Shown piece after piece: positions 5,987 to 17,198 of a stretch of DNA of 21,983 bases (positions are counted from its first letter, which is position 1; each line of letters begins with the position of its first letter). This DNA comes from a virus, in IMG/VR virus record IMGVR_UViG_3300002180_000051, positions 961-22,943 of that record, one strand, 5' to 3'. The notes under the pieces were generated by a model. That model had not been told where the DNA came from, did no database searches, and saw only the letters and a list, made by a program, of their open reading frames with translations. The position numbers and the translations under genes were made by a program.

Positions 5987-7733
5987 TTATCACCTGCACT
6001 GACATCGAGCAAACAGCCTCGTCTGCATTTGTATATTGGATATTCACTTCATCACCTGCTAACCGAACTGAATTCAGAAAAGATATAAGCGTAAAATCTC
6101 CAACATTAATATCAAAACCCCAAGAAGTATCCAGCGTGATTGTTTCCTCAGCGCTGCTGAGTTCCTCGCTATCAATGATCTGAGCAATATAATCTAAACC
6201 ATTGGTATGCTTCAGATACAGATGTGTTCTGTATGGATTCTGATTAATGAGCCTACTGTACCCAATGTTACGGACTGTCATAACCGTCTGGCTTTGGGGT
6301 AGAACATCAGTCATTGTGAAATCATTACGCCACGTAGGAACCCAAAAAGGTTTCACTTTTCCTGCTAAACTCGCAAGCCAACCCTTGAAATCCCAAATCT
6401 TAGTCCGACCGTTGAGATGAAAAGAAAGGGGAAAAATTTCATCGGGGTAACCGAAACGATCTCTATAGGCAACAACCCCGGTTAACGGATCTAAAAGATG
6501 CATTAACCGTTCAGACCTTTCTGTCCAGCCCGCTGTTACTGCTGGCCGCATTTCCACTACATCATAGGTTTTGTACTGGGTAAACGCTGTGAACGCATGC
6601 TCATATGTATCAGGATAGTAATCAAAAAATACTTTGTTTTTTGAGAACCCAGACACGAATGTAGTTCGTTCAAAATTCGGTTGCAATTTGCAAAGATGAA
6701 GGGGTGTGACCGTGGCGCCATTTGCATAATTGTTGGTTAAAGAATACCCTGTCTCTAAGGTAATAGACCCAACGCCCACGCTTGTGATATTAAGCGCCTC
6801 AAAGTTCTGGAGACTGTCAATAATAAATGCTGACCACCCAACACTAAAATCTCCGTAATCTGTATTGACTGTGATTACACTATCCCCTGCGTTGTGTGCA
6901 ACCGCTGTTTTTCTTTCTTCACTCCAAACGGGAACACCAAACAAACTCGGTTGCCAACCGGCAAGTAATTGGTTGAGCGAAGATTGGTCAAACAAGGTGG
7001 TAGGAAACGCTGTTATTTCTTTAGTAATTCTCGGGTCCAACCTATTCCTTATCCGCTGCTCTTTACCATCGTATTTCCGCAATACGCTGGTAAGCCAGGA
7101 GTATGTTTCAGTGTAAACTGCATCAGTTTGAGGGGGGTAAGGAAAGACAAGAACCCTCGTTCCGGTAACAAGGAAAACAACAGTATCTCCGTTCGAAAAT
7201 GTAAATGTAACCGTGTTGTTAATAGTGGGGGCGCCAAGCAAGCTGAGTACAGTTGAAAAGGTTATCTCCTCTGTAGGGGAAAAATCGTCGGTCTCAACAA
7301 GCCCCACAATAGAAGTCCCTCCCGCTCCAGTGGTTGTAATATCGTCAACAGTTAAAACAGGTTCGATATAGGCATTCCACATGTAAGTATCTTCTGCTAT
7401 ATCTGCAACTACGAATTCTGCATCAAACGGGTTTGGTTCAATCCAGATCCGGTTGTAAACAAAATCCATAGCGAAATTGGGTAAATCAGACGAGGCCACA
7501 ACGGTCTGGAGATCCGTACTCTCGCGGTTACCGTAACCATTCTCCACCTTATGGTTAAAAGACCCGCACACAACCTCAAGGTCCACAGCGGAATCAACAG
7601 CTAAAGGTAAAGATTCTCCCGCTAATAAGAATATACCAAAAACGTCAGAAAAATACGAGTTGGGTACACGGGTTAAAAAACTAAGCTTTGATAGAGAATC
7701 GGAAGTAACGCTGAATGTAATATCCCCATCCAT
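5976..7733 (-). CDS. Large distal-tail-like protein
   Basis: 585 residues. The N-terminal part holds beta-rich segments, including RIWIEPNPFDAEF and YMWNAYIEPVLTVDD (118-131), which look like an Ig/fibronectin-type module. The middle has WLTSVLRKYDGKEQRI followed by RNRLDPR (213-235), a motif typical of DUF2460-like distal tail proteins of lambda-like phages and gene transfer agents. The C-terminal third carries the paired pattern GRTKIWDFKGWLASL and a closing beta region ending in RLAGDEVNIQYTN. Its position directly before the gpL-like hub is that of the distal tail protein, but it is far longer than the usual 200-250 residues, so it may combine the distal-tail ring with side domains. ATG 7733 has AGGA six bases upstream. 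Function is inferred from order plus motif. Confidence 0.6.
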   Translation of the reverse strand: MDGDITFSVTSDSLSKLSFLTRVPNSYFSDVFGIFLLAGESLPLAVDSAVDLEVVCGSFNHKVENGYGNRESTDLQTVVASSDLPNFAMDFVYNRIWIEPNPFDAEFVVADIAEDTYMWNAYIEPVLTVDDITTTGAGGTSIVGLVETDDFSPTEEITFSTVLSLLGAPTINNTVTFTFSNGDTVVFLVTGTRVLVFPYPPQTDAVYTETYSWLTSVLRKYDGKEQRIRNRLDPRITKEITAFPTTLFDQSSLNQLLAGWQPSLFGVPVWSEERKTAVAHNAGDSVITVNTDYGDFSVGWSAFIIDSLQNFEALNITSVGVGSITLETGYSLTNNYANGATVTPLHLCKLQPNFERTTFVSGFSKNKVFFDYYPDTYEHAFTAFTQYKTYDVVEMRPAVTAGWTERSERLMHLLDPLTGVVAYRDRFGYPDEIFPLSFHLNGRTKIWDFKGWLASLAGKVKPFWVPTWRNDFTMTDVLPQSQTVMTVRNIGYSRLINQNPYRTHLYLKHTNGLDYIAQIIDSEELSSAEETITLDTSWGFDINVGDFTLISFLNSVRLAGDEVNIQYTNADEAVCSMSVQVINVL

Positions 7734-7769: not shown

Positions 7770-8861
7770 TTATTGTATTCTTATGGCAAACCATCGATCT
7801 GACTCCAGAGTCCCATCAGGAAGAATCAAAAATTTATCATTTCCGTACTCAAGAATTGTTCCAGGGGTTTCACCTACACAATTACAGCTATAAAAAGGTG
7901 TTGTTGCGAAAGGTTGAATGTAGCTGTCCGCAGGTCTCATCACTGAGTAAACAGTTTTCATGAGATGGTAACGACCCCCAATTGTTCTCGATATCTTTAA
8001 ATCTTCAAAGTTCGGATACGAAAGTTCTGACCCTGAGTGATCTGATCCCTTTGTCCAGTAGTGATTCTCGTAAACAGGGTCTAAGTGTTCATCCCCCCAT
8101 ACTATTTTTCCTGCCGACTGCTGTGTTGTTGTCCCTTGCTCGTAGAAAAAAAGAGAAGTATAGGGTTTAGTTGAATAAGGAGCTGCAAATGTTCTGTACA
8201 CCTCCCATGGGTAACACGTGGTAGAGGCACTGTTGTTTATAGGCGAAAAACACCTTAAGATCAAGTTTCCATCAATCGGCATTGTTGCGTCTAACGGAAC
8301 AACAGAGCCAAAGCAAAAATGTTGGTGATAGAAATTATCGTGTGTTATCGCCATCCAAATAAACTTATCATCTCCAAACAAGTACATCTTAGGGATAGCC
8401 AAGTCATGTGTTATCCGAATCCCCCCCGTACCAGTCTGGTAACTACCACACGCTTCAAAAGAGTTATTGGAATCCTGGTGCCACGGAGCATACCGATTCC
8501 CTGTGGCGTCATAAGTTGTATTTTTTACAGCTCCCAAACCAAGAGCATAATCCGTAGGATCATGCCCCGCCACCCCCCCGCGAGGGTTGTAAGTGCTGAC
8601 ACTTTGGTGGAAATTATGCAACATGAACTGAAAGATAAGGTTCTGTGCCCCTCCCCATCCGGGAGAACTTAGGTGAAAAAAAGAATAGTATGAATCCGGG
8701 GTTCCCTGGAATCCATAAGGTTCTTCGAACTGTTCATAGCGTTCACCAGAACGAAAACCTGATTCTGTCCAACCTGCGGCCACTGCAAATGCTCGGAGTT
8801 TCGCAACAACGTCTGTTATTCCGCTTACATTCGTATGTATTTCATAGTTAGGATAAAGCAC
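7770..8861 (-). CDS. Virion structural protein, tail tip region (start at GTG 8861)
   Basis: The open frame extends to an in-frame ATG at 8951, but that start would overlap the upstream gene by 86 bases and has no good ribosome binding site. A GTG at 8861 gives 363 residues, leaves a 4-base gap after the upstream stop at 8866, and has GGAGGAGG nine bases upstream, so I choose it. The N-terminus (VLYPNYEIHTN, then AKLRAFAVAAGWTESG) resembles a family of phage virion proteins that begin with a 'helix-then-NGWT' segment. The C-terminus ends in a short NDKFLILPDGTL...DRWFAIRI closing pattern. It looks like a relative of the C-terminal half of the preceding gene product. No catalytic motif is recognised. 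Probably a tail tip or side-fiber component exposed on the particle; that is inference from context. Confidence 0.65.
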   Translation of the reverse strand: MLYPNYEIHTNVSGITDVVAKLRAFAVAAGWTESGFRSGERYEQFEEPYGFQGTPDSYYSFFHLSSPGWGGAQNLIFQFMLHNFHQSVSTYNPRGGVAGHDPTDYALGLGAVKNTTYDATGNRYAPWHQDSNNSFEACGSYQTGTGGIRITHDLAIPKMYLFGDDKFIWMAITHDNFYHQHFCFGSVVPLDATMPIDGNLILRCFSPINNSASTTCYPWEVYRTFAAPYSTKPYTSLFFYEQGTTTQQSAGKIVWGDEHLDPVYENHYWTKGSDHSGSELSYPNFEDLKISRTIGGRYHLMKTVYSVMRPADSYIQPFATTPFYSCNCVGETPGTILEYGNDKFLILPDGTLESDRWFAIRIQ

Positions 8862-8865
8862 TATT

Positions 8866-10638
8866 TTATACCTCCTCCACGGCGTAAAAGTTATAAACCC
8901 CACCGTTTGCCCCACCGTAGAAAATTCGATACGTTTTGCTCCCCTGAACAAAGGTGCTTTCCGCTGTCAACGACTGCCCCCGCGCAACGAAGATACCATC
9001 TAATTGGGTGAGTAAAACGTCGTTTGCCTCCTCTTTTACGTAGACTGGCCATGTCATTAGTAACCCATCATACGTAGAAGCAACCGGCTGTATGTTGATA
9101 TCACCCTGTTGGGGAGCCATAAACAATTCGTTATATTTATAAACACCACTTGTAGAACGCAAAAGCATATAAGTCCCAAGAGACGAAGAATTGTAACCTC
9201 TATGGACAGAATACCTATTCGAAGCGTAAAGGTAATCGTACACATCCCCTCGTTCTCCGATGGCCATGTTCGGCCTCGGATAGCTGGACGGTGGATCTAA
9301 ACGGTAAGCAAATCCAGTATACGCCGATGTGTAGCTTGAGTCCGAGCATCTCGCGACCATAAAAATCCTCTGTTTATTAGCGTATAGCCACATAGGAAGA
9401 ATCGAATCGGAAAACGGAGCTGTAGGCAACTTCGAAAAACATTGGTTACTTGTGTCATATGTCCCCATACCAAACCCATCGAGATTCACATGCCAAAGTG
9501 TTAATGGATCGCTGTGGTAAACATTTAACGCCCACCCCCACTTTGACGTAGAGGTATTCTTCCACTCCCTTATACCTATAAGTATTTCTTCTACCCCTGA
9601 AATCCCTGTACTTTTCAAAACACAAGCACGTGTTTCGTCTCCGTGAGTAGTTTCTACATTAGATATGTTTCTCGCATTATCCCACAACCTGACTTCCCAA
9701 TCGCCCCTGTCAGGATCTGTTACATACTCTTTATAGTTCATTACCAATGTGGTACCTGTTGCAGGGGCTGCATCAAACTCCAAAGACCATGTACCATCCT
9801 TTGCTACGGAACCGGCAGTCACCCCAGTTCCAGTAATAACACCGTCAGCATCAGCGTAAGCTACGTACTGATTGGCCCAAAGATCATGGCCTTTGGTCAC
9901 TACAAAATCGTCAACTGTCACAGATACTCCAGAATCAATTGCCCGATGAAGCTCAATATCAACAGTAACTTCACGCCCATTACGCAAAGGGAAACTCCCT
10001 ACAAGCGTATAGGAGCCCGCTCCATCTTTTCCATAAAATTCAACAACAGTGTTTATTCTTTTTAATTTCAACCCACCATAAGCTGAAGTACGAGCAGAGG
10101 CAACGATAGATGACAGGTTATCACTGAAATTAGACTGACCAAAAAACTTAGCGCCGTCGTAGACCCCGGCATAACATTCCACGTAATTATCCGCATCAAC
10201 TGAGAACCGTAGACCTACACCATCGGCGTCATCTGCCAACCCCGATAGGCTGCTGAAATCGAAAGATATTTCACAATCATCAAGGACTCTAAAGTTACTG
10301 GATAACACAACGGAATCTGCGGAACCAGTAGCAGCTATCGCTAATGCTAAATCTCCCGCAGCAGATGAAGAACCATCCGTCCCGTTGTCAACTGTCCATC
10401 TCGTAGTATTCAGCGTCGCAAAATCATCATCAGCCGAAGCAGGTGAAACTGTGGTCCCGTGAATTACAGCAGCTCCATACCGGTGCACACTTGTGTTAGA
10501 CAAAGTTCCAGAGAAGCCGGTCTCACTACTGTCTGGTGTTCCAAGTGACTCCCCTTCCACTACAGTACCCGTAGCATAATCAACTAAGGCATCCAAAGCG
10601 CCACAAAAATCAAAAGCTGTTTTGGTTGTGAATGACAT
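8866..10638 (-). CDS. Tail structural protein with concanavalin-A-like jelly-roll domain
   Basis: 590 residues. Residues about 71-249 read like a ConA-like lectin/glucanase or laminin-G-type jelly roll: DDFATLNTTRWTVDNG at the start, alternating strands with VGLRFSVDADNYVECYAG (141-158), and a closing VSVTVDDFVVTKG (238-250). A small beta module (about 258-306) follows, then a C-terminal region (about 315-590) with NKQRIFMVAR and YPRPNMAIGE, like a virion protein family whose relative is encoded next. Carbohydrate or surface-polysaccharide binding is therefore plausible, and the product is a receptor-binding candidate. No glycosidase acid pair could be identified. Its ATG overlaps the tape measure stop (TAATG). 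The N-terminal 70 residues may anchor it to the tail. Role in adsorption is inference. Confidence 0.65.
   Translation of the reverse strand: MSFTTKTAFDFCGALDALVDYATGTVVEGESLGTPDSSETGFSGTLSNTSVHRYGAAVIHGTTVSPASADDDFATLNTTRWTVDNGTDGSSSAAGDLALAIAATGSADSVVLSSNFRVLDDCEISFDFSSLSGLADDADGVGLRFSVDADNYVECYAGVYDGAKFFGQSNFSDNLSSIVASARTSAYGGLKLKRINTVVEFYGKDGAGSYTLVGSFPLRNGREVTVDIELHRAIDSGVSVTVDDFVVTKGHDLWANQYVAYADADGVITGTGVTAGSVAKDGTWSLEFDAAPATGTTLVMNYKEYVTDPDRGDWEVRLWDNARNISNVETTHGDETRACVLKSTGISGVEEILIGIREWKNTSTSKWGWALNVYHSDPLTLWHVNLDGFGMGTYDTSNQCFSKLPTAPFSDSILPMWLYANKQRIFMVARCSDSSYTSAYTGFAYRLDPPSSYPRPNMAIGERGDVYDYLYASNRYSVHRGYNSSSLGTYMLLRSTSGVYKYNELFMAPQQGDINIQPVASTYDGLLMTWPVYVKEEANDVLLTQLDGIFVARGQSLTAESTFVQGSKTYRIFYGGANGGVYNFYAVEEV
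8871..8878 (-). promoter_or_regulatory. Ribosome binding site that decides the GTG start at 8861
   Basis: GGAGGAGG on the minus strand lies in the last codons of the preceding gene (Val-Glu-Glu-Val then stop) with 9 bases to GTG 8861. It is a near-perfect Shine-Dalgarno sequence, and nothing comparable precedes the ATG at 8951. Confidence 0.8.
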
Positions 10639-13600
10639 TACGCAAGCGCTCCTTTGTTCTCTCTCATGATATTTACGATTAGTTTTTCACCCTCTCTTGT
10701 GCTAAGGTAACTCTTTGTCATCGCGGGGTCAAGAACATTTACTATTTTTGTTCCCCCTTGGCTTGGAGCGGGGCTAATTCTATCGGCTATCTTATCCATG
10801 GCTTTGTCCATGCTACTCCCCAAACCCTCAATCCGTGCGGGGATTGATCTACCGTCCGGAAGGGGGACAATCGCTTCTGGATATTGGCCTTCCCCTATAA
10901 GACCGACTGTCGGCTTGCTTATATTTGTAGCGCCTGAAGCAAACCCCTGTAGAGGTTGAAAATGCCCATCCCATATTGCACCGTTTGCTGCAGCAGAGCT
11001 ACTGAGTACAGAAGCTCCTATAGATACCAGGCTCCCAACCCAACCACTACCGCCCTCTGTACCGCCGCTGTCACTACCCAACGCAGCTTTCATGACCTTA
11101 ACCATAGTCAGGTGGATCATCATCTGCGCTGCATCAGCAATAATAGATTGGAGTAGGGAATTGAAATCCATCTTTCCAGTGGCGACGAACTCAGAAAGAG
11201 ACTCTGTCATCTTCTCAAAAGAGGAGGAAGCGAACTCGGAGGCCTGAGAAAAAACATCCGAGGCATTTTCTAAGTAACTGTTTACTCCGTTATCAAGACC
11301 ACCCCAAAAATCCTTACTGGCCTCGGCTTGCTGCTCAAAACTCTTCTCTGCATTTTCTGTTATCTTAGCATACGCCTGGTCTACCTTTTCCACCGCAGCA
11401 TCTAACTCTTTACCTTCGTATATGCTACCAAGCTCGGCCTTTTTCTGATCCCTTTCTAAGTTTATACCTCTTAGCTCTCTGCTTTGGTCTTGCTTCTTCG
11501 GGGCTTGAGTTCGAATGGACAGATCAAACTCAACATCAGTCATTTTTTCGTTTGAAGCTTTGACTATTTTTTCCAGTTCCTTGCGCAACCCCTCGGCTCT
11601 ACCTATATCTTCTAAACTAATCAGTTCATTGAAAACCTCACGCTTTGCTTCTACCGCAGCCAAAGAAGCGACGACACCGGAAATACTGTCATCCATCTGA
11701 CGAAGCTGAGTATCAGTTTTCTCGACCCCAGGAATCTTCAGCATCTCGGCACGTTTGTCTTTTAGCCGACCCACTTGCTTGGTAAGAGCTACTTCCTCCG
11801 CGTCGAACTCTTCTTCCTGAAGCTTCCTTTTTTCGTCTATGAACTCAGATTCAGCAATCAAACCGGCTTTTTTCTTGGCCTCAAGCAAGCGTCCTTCCTG
11901 CTTAATTGAGGCCATTGTCAAAGTCTTTTCCCTGTCTATTTGGCTTTTACGTAGGTCAAGAGATGTCGCAATATATTCCTTTTGCTTTGTTACATCCGTA
12001 ACAATCTTATCAGAAAGACGCAGTGTAGTCAGCTGGCTAAATCTCTTTTGTGCAATGTTTAACTGAGAGTTAAGAGAAGCGACCTCGTCCCTCGCTTTTT
12101 CCGCGGCTCCTTCTGCGCCTGGTACAGCTAAATCCTGTCCAGCATGGATCTCTGCCTCGTTGAATATTTCAACTGCGGCATCCCTCTCCATGGTTAGAAG
12201 ATCAATGTTGTCTCTAACCGCTTGGCGTTTTATCTGATAAACCTTATCCTTGTAATCTTCCTCGGCAATCTGCTTGGACTTATGCAGGTCTCCCAACATC
12301 TGCAGTTCAAAAGAATCCTGTTCTTTCTTCTCATTCTGTAGCAGCTTAGCCTCAGTTATCGCATCCAAATCACCTACTCTGTAAGCCTTGGCCATTGCAG
12401 CTTTTGTTTTCTTGACCGCGGATTCAGCAGCCTCCTGCTCGGCTTTCCAGGCTCCGGGATCACTCAGCATCCTCGCTTTTTCTGCACGTAATTCCCTGAA
12501 CTCTTTTTTTAAAGAAAAAGCCGCCTCTCTGCTTCGCTTAAAATTTTCAACCATTTCAGAGTTATTCGGGTGTTTCTTTACATTCTTTGCCAACTCTAAT
12601 GTTTGCTCGTTTAAATCCGCTAACGTTTCAGTAACCTTGGCTATTTTCTTATCAAACGGAGCAGCCATTACAGCAACTTCTAAACTACCGTAAACACTTT
12701 CTAATCTGGTAACATCTTGAGCTTCCTGCAAAAGTGCTTTACTTTGCGGCGTACCGAACCAACCTTTAGTCCAGTCCTGTCCCTGCCTGGGGTTTTTTCC
12801 TAATGTACCGGCCTTCTGCTTTTCATAAAGCTCTGCTGCATTTAAAGAAGCCAGCACAGTTTCGTCAACGTCGACAATAACATCTTTTAGACCCACATAA
12901 ATATTTTCTATCGTTTTGGCAACAACTGCGGGGGCTGAAAATAAATCCACAAGATCCTCTGCTGCACCCATTAAAAATCCAGAAAGCCCGGAAAGACCCC
13001 TTGACAGCGTTTCAACTGTTCCACTATCAGCGAGATCCCTGAGAGAAAGGATAAGGCTTTTTAAATCTTCGGTCCCAGTTCCTTTTATTGCCGCTTTTTG
13101 CCAAGCAGCTTTAGTTTCATCCCAGAGAATCTTGTTAGTTTTAGCGAGATCCTTGTACATACTTGCTACAAATGATCCTTCTTTTTGAATCTCCTTGAGA
13201 ATCTCAGCCCTCTTAGCTAAAGAAAAATTCCCCAACTGCATCTGTTCGTCGATTCTTTTTAGATCATCGATGCTAATGGCCGTGAGCATGGAACCCGCCG
13301 AAGCAGCGCGAAGAGAAAATACGCTGGTCAGAACTTTCATCCTATCTGAATCAGGAAGGTCTTTTATTGTAGCTGAGAAATTGGAAAACAATTCTGTTAG
13401 CGTAAGCAAGCTTCCATCTTTAGCGAACAAACCGAAATCTATGTGCATGTCTTTAAAAAGCTTTCTGGTTTTTCTCGTTGGGTTTTGTAGCTGTCTTATC
13501 GCGGTTCTAAGGGACGTTGCTGCTTTAGTCCCCTTAATACCCATATCACTCATAATACCAAGACCAGCAGCAATCTCAACAAATGAAGCTCCCGATAACT

Positions 13601-15191
13601 TAGCAAGCTCAGATGTATATTTGAACTGGCTCAACATCTCTTTGATATCAAGTGTTGCATCCAGAGAAGCATAGCCAATAATATTTGCTGCATCTGCTAA
13701 TGATCGCAACCCCCGATCTGTGCCCACCATTTCAACAGACCAAGCCCTGTACTGAGACATAAGCGCGGAGGTAACTTCGCCCAGGCCTTCTTCCGCAACT
13801 GTCGCTAATTGCGCAATTGTCTTGACTTCTTCCAGTGCTGTTGACGCATCGAAACCAGCTTTCATTAAGACCTTAACACTATCTGCCAACTCGTTTGGAC
13901 CTTGAGCCACCCCACCTATTGCTAAGATACCGTCATACAGATTTCCATAGGTCGCAGTGGTATCCTTGGTCGCTTTCCCCAAAGAAACCATATATTCAAG
14001 TTGGTATTCAAATGAGGACGCCGACTTTAACCCTTTTACAGCAGAGGTAACAGCAGCAAAAGTAGCCAACATAGGTAACATCGAACCGTAGGTTAACCAT
14101 AATGCGCCCAAACCTCCGGAAACACCTCTAAGAGCACTGGTAAACTTATTCGCAGAGAACGCAGCCTGATTTGTTGACGCAGTAAACACCTTCTGCGCCG
14201 TTATCGTTTTGTACTCTTCCTTCGTTATAAGCCCTAACCTCCGTGCTTGCGTGGCCAGAGCCTTGTTATTTGCGTGTATAGCTGCTAACTTCTTATCAGA
14301 GCTGCTGATCCCCAGTGCTTTAATCCGTACTCCCTCAGCAAGCGCCCGATTACGTGTCTCTAACGCCGCTGCTTCCGCCCTCGCATTCGTAACAGAATCA
14401 AGACTCGCAGGGGTTAACTTAGTCCTTTTCTCGATTCTGGTTGCTCCTAATTGTGCAGCCATATTAGAACGTAAAGAAACAGTACTCTCTTGTTCAGCTA
14501 TAGCAAGTTTAGTATAGCTTGCAGCCAGGACATCTACCGCAGGGATTTCTTTCTGAATTCCAGCGATGTCAGCGTAACGAGCTTCACTTATCAGCCCTTT
14601 TTCAAGAAGAAGTCCGGCAGCCGCGACGGTTTCGGCCTTCATCGAAGCAATAAGTGCACTCTTAGAAGCCGCTTCTACAGTGGCAAGCTCAACTTGAACT
14701 GCCATTTCTTTATTGAGAAGATTTGTAACTCCGATTAAAGCCTGATCTGTAACAAGCTGCTGCCTTTTAACTGCGGAAAGCGTCTCCATTGAGATCAGCA
14801 ATTCTTTCGCCGATGCCTTTTGTTTAGCGTGGGCGGCATTCACTTTCTCAACCTGGGCGCTACTTCCAGACAGTGCTTTTGCATACGCGGAGAAACTGGA
14901 GGTTAGCACATTGAGGACAGCTTTATTTTTTGCCAGACTACCTGTAAGGTTGGCAACATCTTGCGAAGTTTTGACACTTTTTACAGAAAGGCTATTGAGG
15001 TTCACCTGCATACTCGCTGCAGATAAACTTGCTTCTTTAGCTTCTTTATCCAGAGCAGCTACTTGAGCAGTCAGCTTAGACAGATCGGCTTTTGTTGGTC
15101 TGGAGAGTACAGACTCAATGCGATCAAGGAGGGTTTCAATTTTTTGAAGGTCTCCATCCTCCGCTTTTATCGTCAGGAGTAATCCGCTCAT
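10638..15191 (-). CDS. Tail tape measure protein
   Basis: 1517 residues, the longest gene here, directly after the frameshifted chaperone as in lambda-like phages (ATGA overlap). Residues 1-340 are helical and Ala/Lys-rich. A hydrophobic stretch (about 363-385) opens a TP901-type tape-measure core (about 385-650, with SASSFEYQLEYMVSLG and AAGLGIMSDMGIKGTKAAT). A long coiled-coil region runs to about 1290. The C-terminus carries the lambda-type signature: FEKMTESLSEFVATGKMDF (1324-1342) and GLIGEGQYPEAIVPLPDG (1429-1446). The protein sets tail length and is ejected with the DNA; at about 0.15 nm per residue the tail would be roughly 220-230 nm. No lysozyme or peptidase insertion is seen. Short G-L-I-x-x-x-x-[YF] helical hairpin motifs recur near 199, 320, 974 and 1110. 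Confidence 0.95.
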   Translation of the reverse strand: MSGLLLTIKAEDGDLQKIETLLDRIESVLSRPTKADLSKLTAQVAALDKEAKEASLSAASMQVNLNSLSVKSVKTSQDVANLTGSLAKNKAVLNVLTSSFSAYAKALSGSSAQVEKVNAAHAKQKASAKELLISMETLSAVKRQQLVTDQALIGVTNLLNKEMAVQVELATVEAASKSALIASMKAETVAAAGLLLEKGLISEARYADIAGIQKEIPAVDVLAASYTKLAIAEQESTVSLRSNMAAQLGATRIEKRTKLTPASLDSVTNARAEAAALETRNRALAEGVRIKALGISSSDKKLAAIHANNKALATQARRLGLITKEEYKTITAQKVFTASTNQAAFSANKFTSALRGVSGGLGALWLTYGSMLPMLATFAAVTSAVKGLKSASSFEYQLEYMVSLGKATKDTTATYGNLYDGILAIGGVAQGPNELADSVKVLMKAGFDASTALEEVKTIAQLATVAEEGLGEVTSALMSQYRAWSVEMVGTDRGLRSLADAANIIGYASLDATLDIKEMLSQFKYTSELAKLSGASFVEIAAGLGIMSDMGIKGTKAATSLRTAIRQLQNPTRKTRKLFKDMHIDFGLFAKDGSLLTLTELFSNFSATIKDLPDSDRMKVLTSVFSLRAASAGSMLTAISIDDLKRIDEQMQLGNFSLAKRAEILKEIQKEGSFVASMYKDLAKTNKILWDETKAAWQKAAIKGTGTEDLKSLILSLRDLADSGTVETLSRGLSGLSGFLMGAAEDLVDLFSAPAVVAKTIENIYVGLKDVIVDVDETVLASLNAAELYEKQKAGTLGKNPRQGQDWTKGWFGTPQSKALLQEAQDVTRLESVYGSLEVAVMAAPFDKKIAKVTETLADLNEQTLELAKNVKKHPNNSEMVENFKRSREAAFSLKKEFRELRAEKARMLSDPGAWKAEQEAAESAVKKTKAAMAKAYRVGDLDAITEAKLLQNEKKEQDSFELQMLGDLHKSKQIAEEDYKDKVYQIKRQAVRDNIDLLTMERDAAVEIFNEAEIHAGQDLAVPGAEGAAEKARDEVASLNSQLNIAQKRFSQLTTLRLSDKIVTDVTKQKEYIATSLDLRKSQIDREKTLTMASIKQEGRLLEAKKKAGLIAESEFIDEKRKLQEEEFDAEEVALTKQVGRLKDKRAEMLKIPGVEKTDTQLRQMDDSISGVVASLAAVEAKREVFNELISLEDIGRAEGLRKELEKIVKASNEKMTDVEFDLSIRTQAPKKQDQSRELRGINLERDQKKAELGSIYEGKELDAAVEKVDQAYAKITENAEKSFEQQAEASKDFWGGLDNGVNSYLENASDVFSQASEFASSSFEKMTESLSEFVATGKMDFNSLLQSIIADAAQMMIHLTMVKVMKAALGSDSGGTEGGSGWVGSLVSIGASVLSSSAAANGAIWDGHFQPLQGFASGATNISKPTVGLIGEGQYPEAIVPLPDGRSIPARIEGLGSSMDKAMDKIADRISPAPSQGGTKIVNVLDPAMTKSYLSTREGEKLIVNIMRENKGALA

Positions 15192-15538
15192 GATAGGTTT
15201 CCCTCACTCTTTTGCTTTTTAAAGAAGTTGGCTAAGTAAACGTCATCCATTGCTGCTACAAACCTGAGTAGTCTCGAAAAGTAGCGTGGACCGTGGACAA
15301 AGTCTAATCTAGCATATGATTCAATTTGGGGAATACTCAGAGGCTGTGGTCCAGTGTATGCGAACTGCCTTCTTTTATGCAGCATAGAAAAAGCAGACCA
15401 ATATGTTACTAATCTCGGGGGGATAACTGGACGCCCTTTTTCAGCCGACGGGCCAAGTTTCTTCCCTCTCTTTTTTAACTCAGAAAAGAAGGAAGATGAC
15501 TCTCCCCACGACAGATCGTAAGCCAAGGCCTCTGTTAG
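15188..15538 (-). CDS. Tail assembly chaperone, frameshift extension (gpT-like part of gpG-gpT)
   Basis: This frame is entered by a -1 slip at the A AAA AAC heptamer ending at 15538 and adds 116 residues to the 133-residue upstream product, giving a 249-residue fusion. Its features fit the C-terminal domain of lambda gpGT-type chaperones: LVTYWSAFSMLHKRR, then PQPLSIPQIESYARL and FVAAMDDVYLANFF, a pattern common in the second frame of pre-tape-measure genes. The only in-frame start after the slip is a TTG at 15526 with no proper Shine-Dalgarno sequence, so independent initiation is unlikely. The stop overlaps the tape measure ATG by four bases. The fusion would bind the tape measure protein and recruit tail tube subunits, and be absent from the finished virion. 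Confidence 0.85.
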   Translation of the reverse strand, partial: LTEALAYDLSWGESSSFFSELKKRGKKLGPSAEKGRPVIPPRLVTYWSAFSMLHKRRQFAYTGPQPLSIPQIESYARLDFVHGPRYFSRLLRFVAAMDDVYLANFFKKQKSEGNLS

Positions 15539-15936
15539 TTTTTTTCGTCCCTATCCTCCAACTCAACCTTATAATTGGCTATATCAGAAGCATGTTCCAT
15601 AACCATTTTGCGGAAATCCTTGTGACTTAAGATCATAACAGCGTTTTCAGTGTTGTATTCCAACTGCTTTCCCTTGTAAGATAAGTTTTTCCACCCAAGA
15701 AGAATTGTTCCCGCCAGAATTTTGATTAAGATATCTTTATCTGCCTTTTCGTAAGCCTCAGCTGATAAACCCTGAGAACGTATAGCGAACGCATCGGCCT
15801 CTTCCTGAACCAACTTGAGATAGTTATCGTTATCCCTTCGGGCAACTAAAAGACTTGCGCCTCCGCCGAGATCAACAGTAATACCCTCAGTTTCTTTTCT
15901 CTCATCCGTGGCGAACTCGCTAAATATATCTAACAT
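15535..15936 (-). CDS. Tail assembly chaperone, zero-frame product (gpG-like)
   Basis: 133 residues from ATG 15936. An upstream in-frame ATG at 16002 would add 22 residues, but that segment is encoded across a strong hairpin and lacks a Shine-Dalgarno sequence, whereas AAAAGGA precedes 15936, so the shorter start is preferred. The product (MLDIFSEFATDERKE, then VDLGGGASLLVARRDNDNYL) matches the N-terminal domain style of siphovirus tail assembly chaperones, where G-rich beta strands and an 'R-x-N-x-x-Y' turn are common. It ends at a stop overlapping a canonical -1 frameshift site, from which a fraction of ribosomes makes the longer fusion. Position between tail tube and tape measure genes is the classic one. 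Confidence 0.85.
   Translation of the reverse strand: MLDIFSEFATDERKETEGITVDLGGGASLLVARRDNDNYLKLVQEEADAFAIRSQGLSAEAYEKADKDILIKILAGTILLGWKNLSYKGKQLEYNTENAVMILSHKDFRKMVMEHASDIANYKVELEDRDEKN
15538..15559 (-). promoter_or_regulatory. Programmed -1 ribosomal frameshift site with upstream Shine-Dalgarno-like stimulator
   Basis: On the minus strand the zero frame reads GAA AAA AAC TAA, giving the heptamer A AAA AAC (15544-15538) in the correct X XXY YYZ phase immediately before the stop. GGAGG (15559-15555) lies ten bases upstream of the heptamer, the spacing used by the dnaX frameshift stimulator. A -1 slip leads straight into an open frame of 116 codons with gpT-like sequence. A weak downstream stem (ACAGA 15535-15531 with TCTGT 15515-15511) is possible but not convincing. 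Confidence 0.88.
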
Positions 15937-16019: not shown

Positions 16020-17198
16020 TTAAGCAGGAGCAGTACCGAATCTATCGATATAGACAACCTTATCTGTAGCCCCAGGAGCAATAGCCTTGAAATCTGTAGA
16101 AAGCATAACATCGGCATCTTTGCCAGAAGCCTGTATTGTGGGTATCCCGAGTTTACACTTATTGAATACAAAAGCGTACCCATTCCCCAACACATCCTGG
16201 ACAGGAAACTCAATTGATACAGTCGTGTTTGCTAATGCCTTATCGTAAATATCCCCGTCGTTTAGATAAATCTCTAATGTCCCCTCTACAGCATACGTAC
16301 TCCGACCGATTCCTACATTCCCCAAAACACTTAATCCTGCCTGCCCCCTTAGTTTTGCGTCAATCGATACGTTCGCAGATTTTACGAATGTGTTCGCAAG
16401 AGGATCTCCATCAAGCAGTATGTTACCAACACCTGTTACAGCGTTCATGATGCCGTAAGCATTCGCAGCATCAGCAGCGCCACCAAAATGGGTAGCGTCA
16501 CTCCTCAAGGCATCAGAGCCCATAAAGTCAAGACTACCTGTTAAAAGCGCACCTGTAGCCAGCGACAGTGACAGCTTGGAAGCCGCCATTCCCCTGTAGG
16601 CAAAAAACTGTGAAACATCGGAAAAATTCTTCTGAACAGTGAATGTCTTTAGTGCTGCAGATCCCAAAGTCAATCTGGAGCCAGTGATACTGTAAGTCGT
16701 GTCAGTTTCGTCAACAACTGGATAATCAGTATCAAAGGTAAGAACATCCGATGTGGCAGTGGCAATCCTGAAAACTCCCAGATTCAGCTCTGTTCCGTCA
16801 CCAATAAAAGAAACCCACTGGCCGTCAACAAAATCATCGAAATCACCCGCTGTACCCGTTGCGGTATTCCCGGCCTCTGCAAAAGTTACAGTTGCCAAGG
16901 CCACAACGCCATCTGTACCCGCCTCTGTGTAGGTATTGGCGAGTAAGGCCTCAAAAAAAGGATCATACTCTCTGTACTGGAGCTCAAGGTTTACCCCTCC
17001 CTGGGCGGTCGCACCGACGGGGACCAGATCAGAAACCTGCATTGTAGAATTAATCTCTTTGGACTCTTCTAACGTAATATCGTAAGCAAGAGACTCTCCT
17101 GTCATTCTTAAATTTTTAGGCGTACCTACTGAATCGATAACCCCGAAGGTCGCCTCTTCCAGGTACGATAACTGAGTTGAACTTGTGCCTGCCAGCAT
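16020..17198 (-). CDS. Major tail (tube) protein
   Basis: 392 residues. The N-terminus (YLEEATFGVIDSVGTPKNLR, then MTGESLAYDITLEESKEI and LELQYREYDPFFEALL) matches the long tail tube family of siphoviruses (Phage_tube_2 type), in which R/S/E-rich strands precede a Y-x-x-Y-D-x-x-x-E helix. Residues about 100-175 look like a separate small beta domain (TVTFAEAGNTATGTAGDF through DTDYPVVDETDTTYSI) inserted between the two halves of the tube fold; such surface domains occur in this family. The second half ends with KLGIPTIQASGKDADVML and a 20-residue tail. The start ATG 17198 has AAAGGGGGAA upstream. It would form hexameric rings stacked around the tape measure protein. It lies 20 bases after the terminator gene and is followed by a long hairpin. 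Confidence 0.88.
   Translation of the reverse strand: MLAGTSSTQLSYLEEATFGVIDSVGTPKNLRMTGESLAYDITLEESKEINSTMQVSDLVPVGATAQGGVNLELQYREYDPFFEALLANTYTEAGTDGVVALATVTFAEAGNTATGTAGDFDDFVDGQWVSFIGDGTELNLGVFRIATATSDVLTFDTDYPVVDETDTTYSITGSRLTLGSAALKTFTVQKNFSDVSQFFAYRGMAASKLSLSLATGALLTGSLDFMGSDALRSDATHFGGAADAANAYGIMNAVTGVGNILLDGDPLANTFVKSANVSIDAKLRGQAGLSVLGNVGIGRSTYAVEGTLEIYLNDGDIYDKALANTTVSIEFPVQDVLGNGYAFVFNKCKLGIPTIQASGKDADVMLSTDFKAIAPGATDKVVYIDRFGTAPA

Follow-up and report, generated by a model that had tools for sequence, protein, structure and literature searches.

A predicted -1 ribosomal frameshift at a stop-adjacent heptamer in the tail assembly chaperone gene of an uncultured phage

In phage lambda, the tail assembly chaperone gpG and its fusion product gpGT are encoded between the tail tube and tape measure genes, with a -1 slippery heptamer near the end of the first open reading frame (ORF) and a product ratio of about 30:1 (PMC5009743). 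The lambda heptamer, G_GGA_AAG, lies 15 nt before the stop codon and has no Shine-Dalgarno (SD)-like stretch upstream. Sites that directly abut the stop codon were previously published for Burkholderia phage KL1 (gp18/gp19) and Acinetobacter phage Loki (gp12/gp13). Caulobacter phages phiCbK and CcrColossus are described (PMC3556154) as having a pre-tape-measure chaperone gene with an AAAAAAC or GGGAAAC site. In Escherichia coli dnaX (NC_000913), an SD-like AGGGAG precedes the A-rich heptamer A_AAA_AAG with a spacer of exactly 10 nt, and the shift truncates the product.

The window analyzed here, a 21,983-nt stretch of virus record IMGVR_UViG_3300002180_000051, carries the gene order tail tube, chaperone, -1-frame ORF and tape measure on its minus strand (Table 1). 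The locus shares with lambda this placement, a heptamer late in the first ORF and a predicted fusion product, but its A_AAA_AAC touches the stop codon and a GGAGG lies 10 nt upstream. It belongs to the same chaperone family as KL1, which differs in its G-type heptamer, its weak SD complementarity and an additional gene that precedes the tape measure gene. The stop-adjacent site is also that of Loki, whose chaperone model is matched in BFVD, although Loki lacks the upstream SD-like motif. The dnaX arrangement proposed for GGAGG in the initial annotation stands, since spacer length and the A-rich heptamer agree; the final base of the heptamer differs, and the shift here would extend the product rather than truncate it. 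PhiCbK and CcrColossus differ from this phage in being large prolate phages. On the evidence set out below, a programmed -1 ribosomal frameshift of the lambda G/GT type in the tail assembly chaperone gene is, judged from sequence, the very probable reading. It draws strong support from conservation across the family, from codon periodicity in each of the two frames and from the failure of an alternative-start explanation.

Table 1 Features of the chaperone locus (coordinates are those of the window).
Feature	Position	Strand	Evidence or remark
Tail tube protein	16020..17198	-	PF18906 Phage_tube_2, E 7.7e-38
0-frame tail assembly chaperone (gpG-like), 133 aa	15535..15936	-	PHROG 313, E 1.9e-17; PHROG 8233, E 4.6e-14
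GGAGG, candidate internal SD stimulator	15555..15559	-	10-nt spacer to heptamer; anti-SD pairing -9.3 kcal/mol
Slippery heptamer A_AAA_AAC	15538..15544	-	Phase X_XXY_YYZ; in-phase heptamer in 93/97 related loci
0-frame stop TAA	15535..15537	-	Directly after heptamer; nested in -1-frame Leu codon CTA (15538-15536)
Small hairpin (tentative)	15505..15522	-	15 nt 3' of heptamer; one pair changed on both sides; 3-sequence alignment fold
Long purine/pyrimidine hairpin (tentative)	15460..15496	-	Kept in 3 sequences; far from slip site
-1-frame ORF (gpT-like half)	15188..15550	-	PF23812 Phage_TAC_18, E 3.2e-8, above its cut-off; PHROG 3817, E 1.8e-14
Tape measure protein	10638..15191	-	PF09718 and PHROG tape-measure matches

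The 0-frame gene begins with ATG, comprises 133 codons and ends GAG TTG GAG GAT AGG GAC GAA AAA AAC TAA, which confirms the in-phase heptamer placed against the stop by the initial annotation. Because a TAG at 15553-15551 closes the -1 frame upstream, so that it opens only at 15550, the frame switch is confined to 13 nt, and the heptamer makes up 7 of these. After the slip, 116 further codons can be read in the -1 frame before the TGA at 15188, which would give a fusion of 133 + 116 = 249 aa; this length and the gpT-like character suggested earlier are borne out by the coordinates and by the matches to PF23812 and PHROG 3817. In the window's genes, in-phase heptamers of the form XXXYYYZ (Y = A/T) take up 40 of 6,697 codon phases, and the 0-frame chaperone gene is the only one of 20 genes to end in one. 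Further in-phase copies of A_AAA_AAC are found at 6642 and 12798 on the minus strand, within a tail protein gene and the tape measure gene and far from their stops; given these two copies, A_AAA_AAC alone is insufficient.

In the proposed mechanism, most ribosomes would terminate at TAA and release the 133-aa chaperone, while a minority would slip back by one base on A_AAA_AAC, probably at a low level, and produce the 249-aa fusion with its C-terminal half read in the -1 frame. GGAGG would pair with the 3' end of 16S rRNA and thereby pause or tension the ribosome. By analogy with lambda, the short form may coat the tape measure protein and the fusion may recruit the tail tube protein. The tape measure ATG overlaps the stop codon of the -1 ORF (TCATGA, 15188-15191, minus strand), and given this overlap its translation may be coupled to frameshifted ribosomes. 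Tandem slippage predicts the junction peptide E-K-N-L-T-E. The peptide named in the initial annotation, E-K-K-L-T-E, would require slippage of the P-site tRNA ahead of AAC decoding, an event made possible by the seventh A.

Both halves of the predicted fusion fall within a single known protein family: PHROG 8233 covers them in register over 271 positions, and its C-terminal half matches the -1-frame ORF. AlphaFold models of the two halves are confident (pLDDT 90 for the first and 88 for the second). The best BFVD matches of the first half are annotated chaperones, with CcrColossus as the top match and Loki among them. A Foldseek search of the PDB with this first-half model (15535-15936) gave no match at E<=0.001, leaving only the BFVD chaperone models, and the PDB yielded no useful match by fold or by sequence; the lack of a match does not imply a new fold. 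A comparison with Rfam likewise returned no match. Elsewhere on the minus strand, at 7770-10638, two adjacent structural proteins (one of 590 aa and the next ORF) share matches to PHROG 687; for the second, GTG 8861, preceded by GGAGGAGG, is a more probable start than TTG 8951.

Similarity to the 0-frame protein brought in most of the 97 related loci that we assembled, and similarity to the -1 half brought in the others; none was retrieved by its heptamer. An in-phase heptamer within the stretch where the -1 frame is open is present in 93 of the 97, so the heptamer conservation in related phages that the initial annotation named as a check is found, while four loci (L053 and L097-L099) retain both frames with no standard heptamer. 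The 3' ends of these four read CAG GGG GAA GCC TAA in L053 and GCA AAG TCG TAA, with an A_AAG tetramer, in L097-L099. Heptamer types and gaps were counted in 74 non-redundant loci. The heptamer alternates across the family between A-type and G-type, and its final C is almost always kept: G_GGA_AAC occurs in 35 loci, A_AAA_AAC in 33 and G_GGA_AAG in 3, alongside three singletons. The stop codon follows directly in 42 of the loci and after 3 nt in 20. Only two close relatives of the window emerged, L002 and L003, which share 76-77% protein identity with it in the first half and 88-89% in the second. A DNA-level search in named phages found none. One relative from a bacterial genome lies on a Variovorax contig, and records that already join the two ORFs are those of Erwinia phage AH03, Sonora and KL1.

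Asn-ending heptamers (A_AAA_AAC and G_GGA_AAC) are weak in E. coli according to published work (PMC4066793), and the fusion yield may for that reason be very low. A weak heptamer fits the low fusion ratio that would be wanted.

Substitutions among the closest relatives point to coding in both frames. In the -1 ORF, differences at codon positions 1, 2 and 3 number 9, 8 and 44 between the window and L003, and 16, 7 and 42 between the window and L002; this third-position excess means that the -1 ORF is protein-coding in its own frame. Toward the junction, synonymous sites in the final 0-frame codons are frozen among the closest trio (23/24 against 160/269 in pairwise comparisons; by codon, 7/7 against 36/84, p = 0.004), and the four comparable codons that precede the heptamer give p = 0.04 by themselves. 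Conserved -1-frame residues begin at the first codon past the heptamer, with the pattern L-x-E-x-L-x-W. To judge by these patterns, both frames are under protein-level constraint, each in its own frame.

The leucine that opens this pattern overlaps the stop codon in 66 of 74 relatives and forms an invariant column in an alignment of 37 sequences. Its codon consists of the base before the stop followed by the first two bases of the stop (C-TR or T-TR), so that a single YTRA string terminates the 0 frame while encoding the needed Leu in the -1 frame. At loci with no gap the Leu is automatic, because AAC is followed by the stop. At loci with a 3-nt gap it is not automatic, yet 19 of 20, on inspection, encode Leu. 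Slippage may also be aided by a U immediately after the heptamer, as in E. coli work on A_AAA_AAG. The stop-adjacent heptamer, which the initial annotation singled out as noteworthy in combination with an SD stimulator, is thus present but typical of the family; with KL1 and Loki already in print, it characterizes the family rather than this window in particular.

Could the second ORF instead encode a separate protein with its own start, such as TTG 15526? This codon is in frame, five codons past the slip, and has AGAGG just before it, but only 2 nt separate the two, the TTG is replaced by CTG in L002 and by CTA in L003, and the conserved -1-frame residues begin upstream of it. Across the family, the first in-frame ATG lies more than 20 codons in or is absent in 61 of 74 relatives, and the same holds for any ATG, GTG or TTG at more than 15 codons in 49 of 74. 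Nor does GGAGG serve such a start: no start codon stands at initiation distance from it, a role as an initiation signal was rejected on this ground, and just 6 of 56 relatives have any ATG, GTG or TTG between 4 nt before the heptamer and its end. Two independent proteins are therefore a very improbable reading. We give equally little credence to a fusion mRNA made by transcriptional slippage at the A7 run. Seven A's do occur in the window and its two closest relatives, but half of the family has GGGAAAC, most A-type members have six A's, and what is conserved is phase and position rather than run length; with G-type relatives that have no long A run, this candidate was rejected. The programmed frameshift itself, as initially annotated, is strongly supported by its conservation in the family, by coding in both frames and by the absence of a conserved second start.

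A weightier question within the frameshift reading is whether GGAGG stimulates slippage or is an incidental by-product of Glu codons, with slippage promoted instead by RNA structure on the 3' side or by the adjacency of the stop. The motif is exact in L002 and L003, recurs at the same spacing in L050, L058 and L091, and its anti-SD pairing ranks with the few strongest found among 55 relatives. In 56 relatives below 60% identity, comparison with synonymous shuffles limits the extra anti-SD affinity to 5-10 nt upstream of the heptamer; 0 of 200 shuffles reach the same strength, and the rest of the gene holds no comparable stretch. The signal is clear in A-type loci and weak in G-type loci. However, permuted pyrimidine-rich oligos produce nearly the same codon-level signal (n = 40, mean z -2.4, with 7/40 reaching the value of the true anti-SD), so the upstream signal is an enrichment of G and purines that is not demonstrably SD-specific. 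No SD-like motif is found upstream of the heptamer in Loki, L025, L029 or L085. Stable structure just downstream is enriched at the family level, with a mean best z of -2.79 against -1.19 in a control stretch 150 nt further and with 44% against 7% of loci below -3 (Wilcoxon p 1e-5). Downstream structure in the window itself is modest, at z about -1.7 to -1.8, and stronger in L002 (z -3.25). Both hairpins, placed tentatively from three sequences, are kept throughout the closest trio, with two pairs changed on both sides. On balance, we lean toward GGAGG pairing with the 16S 3' end mattering for slippage; an incidental GGAGG is a serious contender to which we assign somewhat less than an even chance. 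Downstream structure may also contribute to slippage. The initial annotation had set an SD stimulator in place of structure: the strong GGAGG, kept in the closest relatives, is there and its stimulation is predicted, while the conserved hairpins and the family-wide enrichment leave room for a role of structure as well.

More doubtful, though possible, is the wider proposal that PHROG-313-type chaperones share a compact recoding cassette that tunes a low fusion ratio. Such a cassette would combine a heptamer that is weak in E. coli (A_AAA_AAC or G_GGA_AAC, almost always with a final C), a stop nested in an obligatory -1 Leu, an anti-SD-pairing stretch 5-10 nt upstream and 3' RNA structure.

With these results, the frameshift can be annotated with good support in an uncultured phage and in many relatives whose two ORFs are recorded separately. 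The family alignment also turns two matters into testable questions: how bacterial ribosomes shift to the -1 frame at heptamers that end in an Asn codon, a class weak in E. coli, and how far internal SD sequences contribute in phage tail operons.
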